Positions 32,054 through 34,138 of a stretch of DNA of 64,000 nt are shown here, one piece after another (within the stretch, counting starts at the first letter, position 1; every line of letters starts with the position of its first letter). The DNA comes from Geobacillus subterraneus. GTDB lineage: Bacteria; Bacillota; Bacilli; Bacillales; Anoxybacillaceae. The stretch spans positions 806,001 through 870,000 of the forward strand of contig NZ_CP014342.1 in assembly GCF_001618685.1 (NCBI RefSeq), read 5' to 3'. A program made the translations under genes and the position numbers. The notes beneath the pieces are model-generated. The model did no database searches, was not told the DNA's origin, and saw only the letters and a list, made by a program, of their open reading frames with translations.

Positions 32054-32082
32054 AAAAAAGCGTCCTAATTAGGACGCTTTTG
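32054..32082 (-). terminator. Terminator of the dicarboxylate symporter gene
   Basis: AAAAGCGTCCT and its exact complement around a 4-base loop, followed on the minus strand by T6; it includes the stop codon. Confidence 0.9.
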
Positions 32083-33301
32083 TACCCACTCCTGCGTACT
32101 TCTTCTCTGTTTCGGCAACGATTACGGCGCAAGCGGCGTCACCGGTAATATTGACAGCAGTGCGAGCCATATCCAAAAGCCGGTCGATGCCGATGATCAA
32201 TGCGATTCCTTCGACAGGAAGGTTGACGGAATTCAACACCATCGCCAACATCACTAATCCGACACCAGGTACACCGGCCGTTCCAATGCTCGCCAATACA
32301 GCCGTTAATACAACTGTTGCCAATTGCGAGATCGTGAGGTCGATACCGTAAGCTTGAGCGATAAATATAGTGGCGACCCCTTGCATAATGGCCGTGCCAT
32401 CCATATTGATGGTTGCTCCTAATGGCTGCACGAAACTGCTAATATGTTTTGGCACCCCAAGTTTCGTTTGAGCGACATTCATCGAAATCGGCAGCGTTGC
32501 GTTGCTGCTTGATGTACTGAACGCCACGCCCATCGCTGGAGCGAACTGTTTAAAAAAGGAGAATGGATTGCGTTTAGCAAACAGGTAGAGCGATGAGCCG
32601 TATGTGAACAGCATGTGGATGATCAAACTGAAAAGAACGACGGACATGTACATTCCCATCGAGCGGATGGCGTCCGTTCCTTGGCTGCCGACGGCGGAGG
32701 CGATTAAGCCGAATGCACCGTACGGGGCAAACCGCATAATGACAGTGACCAAATACATCATCACTTCATTGCCTTGCTCGATGAGTTTGAACAAGCCAGC
32801 TGTTTTTTCTCGCAACATGGAAAGCGCAAACCCAACAAATATGGAAAAAGTGATAATTTGCAGCATGTTTCCTTCTGCAAATGCCTGAACGGGGTTTTTT
32901 GGAATAATGTTTAATAAAGTTTCTGACACAGGTGGTGCCTCTTTTGGTTCAAATTGAGCCTGACTGGTGTTAAAGTCGCCGACGCTCCCAGGTTTGGTTA
33001 CTAACGCCAATGAAATGCCAATGGCAATGGCGATGGCTGTAGTGATGAGGAAATACGAAATGGTTTTTATTCCAATTCGCCCGAGTTTTTTTGGGTCTCC
33101 TAATCCGGCTGTCCCTAATACGATGGAAAAAAAGACAATGGGCACGACGATCATATTAATTAAATTTAAAAAGAGTTTCCCAAGCGGTGTAAAAACATAG
33201 GCGTTTACTGTATCGAATGGTTGAGGGAAGAAAAGGTTGAATATTAGTCCAACGATGGATCCAAGTATCAGTGCAATAATGATTTTTAACGATAGCTTCA
33301 T
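32069..33301 (-). CDS. Dicarboxylate/amino acid:cation symporter (DAACS)
   Basis: 410-aa integral membrane transporter that takes up glutamate, aspartate or C4-dicarboxylates with sodium or protons. Family signatures are the serine-rich re-entrant loop AFSTSSSNATLP, the NMDGTA motif and GVPGVG near the second hairpin; about eight helices. It is close to GltP/GltT-type proteins, but the substrate cannot be fixed. ATG with GGAGGG. Its GC content is visibly lower than its neighbours', and it has no counterpart between lipM and mntR in B. subtilis, so transfer or relocation is possible. Confidence 0.92.
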   Translation of the reverse strand: MKLSLKIIIALILGSIVGLIFNLFFPQPFDTVNAYVFTPLGKLFLNLINMIVVPIVFFSIVLGTAGLGDPKKLGRIGIKTISYFLITTAIAIAIGISLALVTKPGSVGDFNTSQAQFEPKEAPPVSETLLNIIPKNPVQAFAEGNMLQIITFSIFVGFALSMLREKTAGLFKLIEQGNEVMMYLVTVIMRFAPYGAFGLIASAVGSQGTDAIRSMGMYMSVVLFSLIIHMLFTYGSSLYLFAKRNPFSFFKQFAPAMGVAFSTSSSNATLPISMNVAQTKLGVPKHISSFVQPLGATINMDGTAIMQGVATIFIAQAYGIDLTISQLATVVLTAVLASIGTAGVPGVGLVMLAMVLNSVNLPVEGIALIIGIDRLLDMARTAVNITGDAACAVIVAETEKKYAGVGTKAS

Positions 33302-33477: not shown

Positions 33478-33484
33478 CATACTA
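33478..33484 (+). promoter_or_regulatory. Sigma-G type -10 in front of the splB remnant
   Basis: CATACTA, the exact sigma-G/F -10, about 34 bases before the GTG of the splB remnant. splB is a forespore gene in B. subtilis, so this is probably its orphaned promoter. Confidence 0.5.
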
Positions 33485-33517
33485 ACATCAAAATATGGAC
33501 AGCTTGGAGGGAAACGA

Positions 33518-33597
33518 GTGAAACCGTTTGTGCCCAAACTTGTGTATTTCGAGCCGGAGGCGCTGTCGTACCCGCTCAAGTACAGTATTTTACGTAA
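33518..33597 (+). pseudogene. splB: splB deletion remnant (spore photoproduct lyase)
   Basis: After TTGGAGGG and a GTG, 20 codons read MKPFVPKLVYFEPEALSYPL, which I recognise as the N-terminus of Geobacillus spore photoproduct lyase. Two bases later, in another frame, come GTA CAG TAT TTT ACG TAA (VQYFT then stop), its C-terminus. The roughly 315 codons in between, including the radical-SAM CxxxCxxC site, are gone. The fused frame gives only a 32-residue peptide. The deletion stops at the edge of the mntR promoter. Radical-SAM repair of UV damage in spores should be absent unless another copy exists. Confidence 0.8.
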
Positions 33598-33617
33598 AGT
33601 CCTCTTCATGGTATAAT
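33589..33617 (+). promoter_or_regulatory. mntR promoter embedded in the splB 3' end
   Basis: TTTACG (33589-33594, covering the last splB codons), 17-base spacer and consensus TATAAT (33612-33617). Confidence 0.65.
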
Positions 33618-33712: not shown

Positions 33713-34138
33713 TTGCCGACACCAAGCATGGAAGACTATATCGAACAAATTTATTTATTGATCGAAGAGAAGGGCTATGCCCGCGTCTCTGACATCGCTG
33801 AGGCGCTATCCGTTCATCCCTCCTCAGTGACGAAAATGGTGCAAAAGCTCGATAAGGATGAATATTTAGTGTATGAAAAATACCGCGGCCTCGTCCTGAC
33901 GCCGAAAGGGAAGAAAATCGGCCAGCGGCTCGTTTACCGTCATGAGCTGCTTGAGCAGTTTCTCCGCTTGATCGGCGTCCACGAAGAAAACATTTACCGC
34001 GACGTGGAAGGGATTGAACATCATTTGAGCTGGAACGCCATTGACCGGATCGGCGATTTAGTGCAATATTTTCAAGAGGACGAACGCCGGGTGGAAGCGC
34101 TCCGCAATGTCCAAAAGCGCAATGAGCAAGGAGAGTAA
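33713..34138 (+). CDS. mntR: Manganese-responsive regulator MntR
   Basis: 141-aa DtxR-family repressor that binds Mn(II) and represses manganese uptake. The N-terminus [14 protein letters not shown] places metal ligands Asp8 and Glu11 as in B. subtilis Mnt[19 protein letters not shown] carries the later ligand histidines. The start is TTG at 33713, supported by AGGAGGGG at 7-8 bases and by exact alignment. The longer frame from 33626 is spurious. Its promoter is the one preserved at the splB remnant. A terminator overlaps its end. Confidence 0.95.

Follow-up and report, generated by a model that had tools for sequence, protein, structure and literature searches.

Deletion of splB in Geobacillus subterraneus and its apparent recurrence at one locus in the family

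We consider it highly probable that the spore photoproduct lyase gene splB of Geobacillus subterraneus was lost via a 946-bp deletion between short repeats that spared the mntR promoter, that the strain would be reliant on excision repair, and that this loss is one of about ten in the family and may reflect relaxed selection. The window analyzed here is the whole stretch of 64,000 nucleotides, and the locus in it was compared with those of 14 genomes of the genus, 41 genomes of the family, and a sample of the order.

The splB remnant and the deletion junction

The closest of the 14 genus genomes was G005, which was 98.0% identical in an alignment of 13 downstream open reading frames that spans 9,163 columns. 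G005 has an intact splB gene of 341 codons at the same locus, starting at C1:939186 (the query that we used has 340 codons). TIGR04070 identified the G005 protein as spore photoproduct lyase (500 bits; cut-off, 400), and the protein matched the solved spore photoproduct lyase chains 4fhc, 4k9r, 4fhe, 4fhg, and 4rh0. The corresponding features in the window were as follows:

32069 to 33301, minus strand: sodium:dicarboxylate symporter family gene, upstream neighbor of the splB remnant (PF00375, 459 bits)
33478 to 33484, plus strand: CATACTA, a sigma-G-like -10 element that we take to be that of splB, kept; the longer catactaac lies upstream of intact splB in G001, G005, G007, G008, and G012, all of the genus
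33506 to 33511, plus strand: GGAGGG, ribosome-binding site of the splB remnant, kept
33518 to 33577, plus strand: splB codons 1 to 20, with a GTG start (ATG in G005) and 58 of 60 bases identical to G005
33518 to 33616, plus strand: residual open frame of 32 codons, which stops within the mntR -10 element
33572 to 33577, plus strand: CCGCTC direct repeat at the deletion join, from the alignment to G005
33574 to 33597, plus strand: last seven codons of splB and the stop (AQVQYFT), out of frame with codons 1 to 20; positions 33574 to 33577 are common with the repeat
33589 to 33617, plus strand: predicted mntR promoter (-35 TTTACG, 17-nt spacer, -10 TATAAT; 10 of 12 matches)
33713 to 34138, plus strand: mntR, manganese-dependent regulator, intact (NF003025, 268 bits; cut-off, 138)

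The 20 codons opened by the GTG at 33518 read MKPFVPKLVYFEPEALSYPL. They differed from the intact G005 copy at two of the 60 bases, one of which was within the start codon, and two further substitutions were located near the stop. The flanks of the remnant aligned to G005 at 97.2% (1,486 columns) and 98.4% (1,631 columns) identity, and 161 columns around its 5' part aligned at 94.4%. Exactly 946 bp (315.3 codons) were missing relative to G005. Although the remnant retained both ends of the intact gene, the missing segment (codons 21 to about 334) contained the CxxxCxxC radical-SAM motif, which is CMGHCHYC in the G005 protein, and the remainder was out of frame. The complete radical-SAM protein with CxxxCxxC that defines a functional spore photoproduct lyase (TIGR04070) is not encoded at this locus. 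The remnant was also the sole SplB match in the whole G. subterraneus genome, and a second copy of splB was therefore rejected. With both ends matching the intact gene that G005 has at this locus, the catalytic core gone, and no second copy in the genome, the single locus is, as far as its sequence can tell, an ordinary deletion pseudogene of splB.

These results upheld a sequence-only reading of the window, which had described an internal splB deletion that left both gene ends. The GTG and its ribosome site do open 20 N-terminal SplB codons, the 60 bases do match splB, about 315 codons that include the radical-SAM site are lost, and CATACTA is kept upstream. Two of the checks that it had proposed, a comparison with intact splB-mntR loci of relatives and a search for a second splB, returned the 946-bp difference from G005 and the remnant only. 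It had also placed the C-terminal codons VQYFT-stop in another frame; the frame shift was correct, but the retained end was two codons longer. Beyond that reading, our genome comparisons indicated that splB loss recurs in the family and that uvsE is also broken.

The deletion join was located in the direct repeat CCGCTC, of which G005 splB has just two copies, at codons 19 and 334. The repeat occurred at both ends of the segment lost, and one copy remained in G. subterraneus. A join within a 6-bp direct repeat makes a short-repeat deletion likely, and splB would have been inactivated by one 946-bp deletion between the two CCGCTC copies (codons 19-20 and about 334). Since only 0.04% of the 235,624 different deletions of 300 bp or more that the region allows have a junction homology of at least 6 bp, the repeat at the join is probably not incidental. 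A chance match of the remnant to splB was ruled out by the flank alignments to G005 and by the rarity of such junction homology. Longer exact repeats (7 to 9 bp) were present in G005 splB and were not used by the deletion.

Deletions between short direct repeats belong to the replication-slippage class. The single 6-bp copy left at the G. subterraneus join resembles this class, as does the 11-bp copy in G017 and G020, and the likeness is one of the sequence at the joins. No match to Ku (PF02735) was found in any of the 41 family genomes; the same search found Ku in B. subtilis, which differs from the family in this respect. The absence of Ku is evidence only against joining that depends on Ku. 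The most likely mechanism would be replication slippage or some other short-repeat process that needs no Ku.

The deletion ends short of the predicted mntR promoter, the -35 element of which (TTTACG) consists of the final splB codons TTT ACG, as the earlier reading had also suggested. TTTACG-17-TATAAT was the best of five promoter-like sites in the region, compared to an average of 1.0 such sites in shuffled sequence, and a TG precedes the -10 element. A -35/-10 pair was located 5' of mntR in 13 of the 14 family genomes that lacked full-length splB, and in the seven such genomes of the genus the -35 element was TTTACG, the same as the splB end. The sole exception was G038, in which no promoter-like pair was found in the 460 bases before mntR. 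Because the deletion spares its promoter, mntR should remain expressed in G. subterraneus. In G038 (L177, 1139-2383), a Mutator-family transposase gene was located between the C-terminal splB remnant and mntR.

Recurrence of splB loss

Full-length splB was found in 7 of the 14 genus genomes and in 27 of the 41 family genomes; the other 7 (G. subterraneus included) and the other 14, respectively, were without it. G002, whose contig begins in the last splB codons, was counted among the genomes without splB (when it is excluded, 6 of 13 genus genomes and 13 of 40 family genomes lack the gene), and G025, whose assembly also holds a second, broken partial copy, was counted as having it.

In the case of G003 and G009, codons 1 to 22 and about the last 17 codons remained, and the two genomes had one common junction and different flanking alleles. 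G017 and G020 had codons 1 to 21 joined to about codon 230 via an 11-bp repeat, an in-frame loss of 627 bp, and they lacked another segment of about 250 bp before the splB end; the 11-bp repeats and the 627 bp were measured in all four intact relatives that were examined. G011 had lost the splB start, and its C-terminal part was found behind the usual upstream DNA. G006 and G004 retained only C-terminal parts, G038 and G031 had decayed C-terminal pieces, and G026, G033, and G037 yielded no splB match by tblastn at an E value of 0.1. The junction of G. subterraneus was not found in the other genomes whose junctions were compared. In G026 (L173, 2467-4042), where splB was wholly gone, the end of a ribonucleotide reductase gene abutted the mntR promoter, and an HNH endonuclease open reading frame before this gene end looked like an insertion in that gene.

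All 27 intact genomes had mntR beside splB. Because the intact copies occupy one place and debris was found there in most of the other genomes, we read the states as losses. On the best tree (mntR and the next gene), splB must switch state 11 times, and nine of these changes were forced by starred branches. In the first tree, G003 was represented by only 2,715 of the 9,163 columns; the second was built from genes next to splB, with unlike base composition warned of in 20 of 41 rows. The clustering of genomes without splB on the tree did not differ from that under random relabeling (values as low were obtained in 178 and 188 of 500 shuffles). About ten losses of splB appear to have occurred at this one locus in the family, although recombination could lower the number of deletions, and the G. 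subterraneus deletion would be one of them. Among the matches listed in the open-licence literature, we found no paper title or abstract on splB loss in Geobacillus.

Specifically, deleted splB alleles might have spread by homologous recombination, in which case there would be fewer independent deletions than the tree suggests. We regard this as possible, if rather doubtful. G003 and G009 lie apart on the trees but have one junction, and G013, the closest relative of G009, has an intact splB; the G009 locus (L039) is also a mosaic, in which the 40 bases before the start are those of G008 and the downstream genes are 99.2% like those of G013. Similarly, both junctions are common to G017 and G020, which the tree does not place as sisters, although the intervening branches are not starred. 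Against these shared junctions stand the different end states in G. subterraneus, G003/G009, G017/G020, G011, G006, G004, G026, G031, and G038, and we prefer about ten losses at the locus as the reading of the family.

The left ends of the deletions in G. subterraneus, G003/G009, and G017/G020 were located at codons 20 to 22, either on the codon 19-21 element CCGCTCGG or only a few bases away from it. This element was part of the repeat in two of the three deletion types (G. subterraneus and G017/G020), and no clear repeat was seen by eye at the G003/G009 join. Such left ends, along with the kept ribosome-binding site and start region, might suggest that selection has retained the 5' stub (codons 1 to 20 and a new tail) as a small peptide or an RNA element, but this is very improbable because the repeat element accounts for the recurrent left end in two of the three types, the tails differ between genomes, and G011, G006, and G004 have lost the start. 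The stubs of G009 and G017 carry amino-acid changes, so the stub has probably not been retained for any function. A cluster of deletion ends at codons 20 to 24 outside the family was not supported by G170, in which degenerate splB homology seems by eye to continue to about codon 33, or by G078, in which the splB match extends to codon 44.

The sample of the order comprised 150 genomes, 144 of which were from outside the family. A one-piece, near-full-length splB match was found in 119 of these 144 genomes and not in the other 25, with G168 counted as not intact. A SpoIVA match was present in 22 of the 25, and splB loss outside the family in genomes that have a SpoIVA match indicates that thermophily is not needed for loss. 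The loss rate was 14 of 41 in the family versus 25 of 144 outside (Fisher p = 0.029) and 7 of 14 in the genus versus the same 25 of 144 (Fisher p = 0.009), with kinship ignored and the outside genomes being a sample. Judging from these counts, splB loss is not special to the family, but it is commoner there. In G168 (L214), splB and spoIVA were both fragmented, a sign that this assembly may contain indel errors.

Predicted consequences and other UV-repair genes

SASP genes and a UvrB match were found in all 41 family genomes, so formation of spore photoproduct should continue, with excision repair still available. Because the enzyme is missing, the strain should have no means of reversing spore photoproduct directly. 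At germination its spores would have to rely on nucleotide excision repair, which could still be acting in G. subterraneus. Selection for UV resistance of the spores is presumably relaxed in thermophiles that are seldom exposed to sunlight.

A single-base difference from G005, where the copy is intact, breaks the G. subterraneus gene for the UV endonuclease UvsE (G000:C1:1656014-1656825, L188; outside the window) into two frames. This frameshift may be a consensus error, as it is of the kind that such errors produce, and our analysis covered the assembled sequence; even so, it is scarcely credible that the strain has an intact splB from which the consensus dropped 946 bp, since a 6-bp repeat is too short for collapse, the genome is a single contig that is 100% complete, the remnant has further substitutions (two in 60 codon bases and two by the stop), and related genomes bear different deletions at the same locus, all of which make assembly collapse an unlikely source of the gap.

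The deletion of splB and the broken uvsE make the G. subterraneus genome resemble a natural splB uvsE double mutant. According to PMC6399134, simulated Mars UV reveals an approximately 300-fold higher sensitivity of B. subtilis splB spores, and ywjD (uvsE) splB spores are more sensitive than those lacking splB alone. PMC3742179 presents SplB as a main cause of spore UV resistance and states that UV sensitivity changes only slightly when excision repair or SPL is blocked on its own. In contrast to the B. subtilis mutants, the loss in G. subterraneus is natural, and it is known from the genome of a presumed thermophile. The genus offers natural near-sister pairs with and without splB (G005 and G. 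subterraneus, 98.0%; G013 and G009, 99.2%) in which the contribution of SPL could be tested. With 7 of 14 genomes lacking a readable full-length splB, the UV resistance of Geobacillus spores should not be inferred from the genus name.

A one-piece uvsE/ywjD match (UvdE) was found in 6 of the 41 family genomes, and photolyase (PF03441) was found in 7; all 13 of these matches were in genomes with full-length splB, and all seven photolyase matches were in genus g2. An intact uvsE or photolyase gene was thus present in 13 of 27 genomes with splB versus 0 of 14 without (Fisher p = 0.0013, kinship ignored). When kinship was respected, the link was not significant (sign test, median p = 0.125): among nine kinship-independent pairs, three to five pointed in the same direction, none pointed in the opposite direction, and the rest showed no difference. 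We accordingly rejected joint loss of splB with the other UV genes as an established link.

A broader reading is that thermophiles of the family repeatedly dismantle spore UV defense as a module of splB, uvsE, and photolyase. About ten separate losses of splB at one locus would have contributed, almost all of them delimited by the mntR promoter at or within the splB end, and the repeat at codons 18 to 21 would be a recurrent breakpoint. This reading is tentative, and we lean slightly against it; if it were true, splB status would be a genomic readout of sunlight in the life cycle of a spore former. Recurrence at one locus, the common breakpoint element, and the possible joint loss of uvsE and photolyase give the locus a moderate interest beyond that of a single pseudogene.

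No photolyase match was found in G017 or G020, the g2 members without splB. In genus g2 (G014 to G022), photolyase was present in exactly the seven of nine members that had intact splB. One genome with full-length splB, G040, had a uvsE fragment with a stop.
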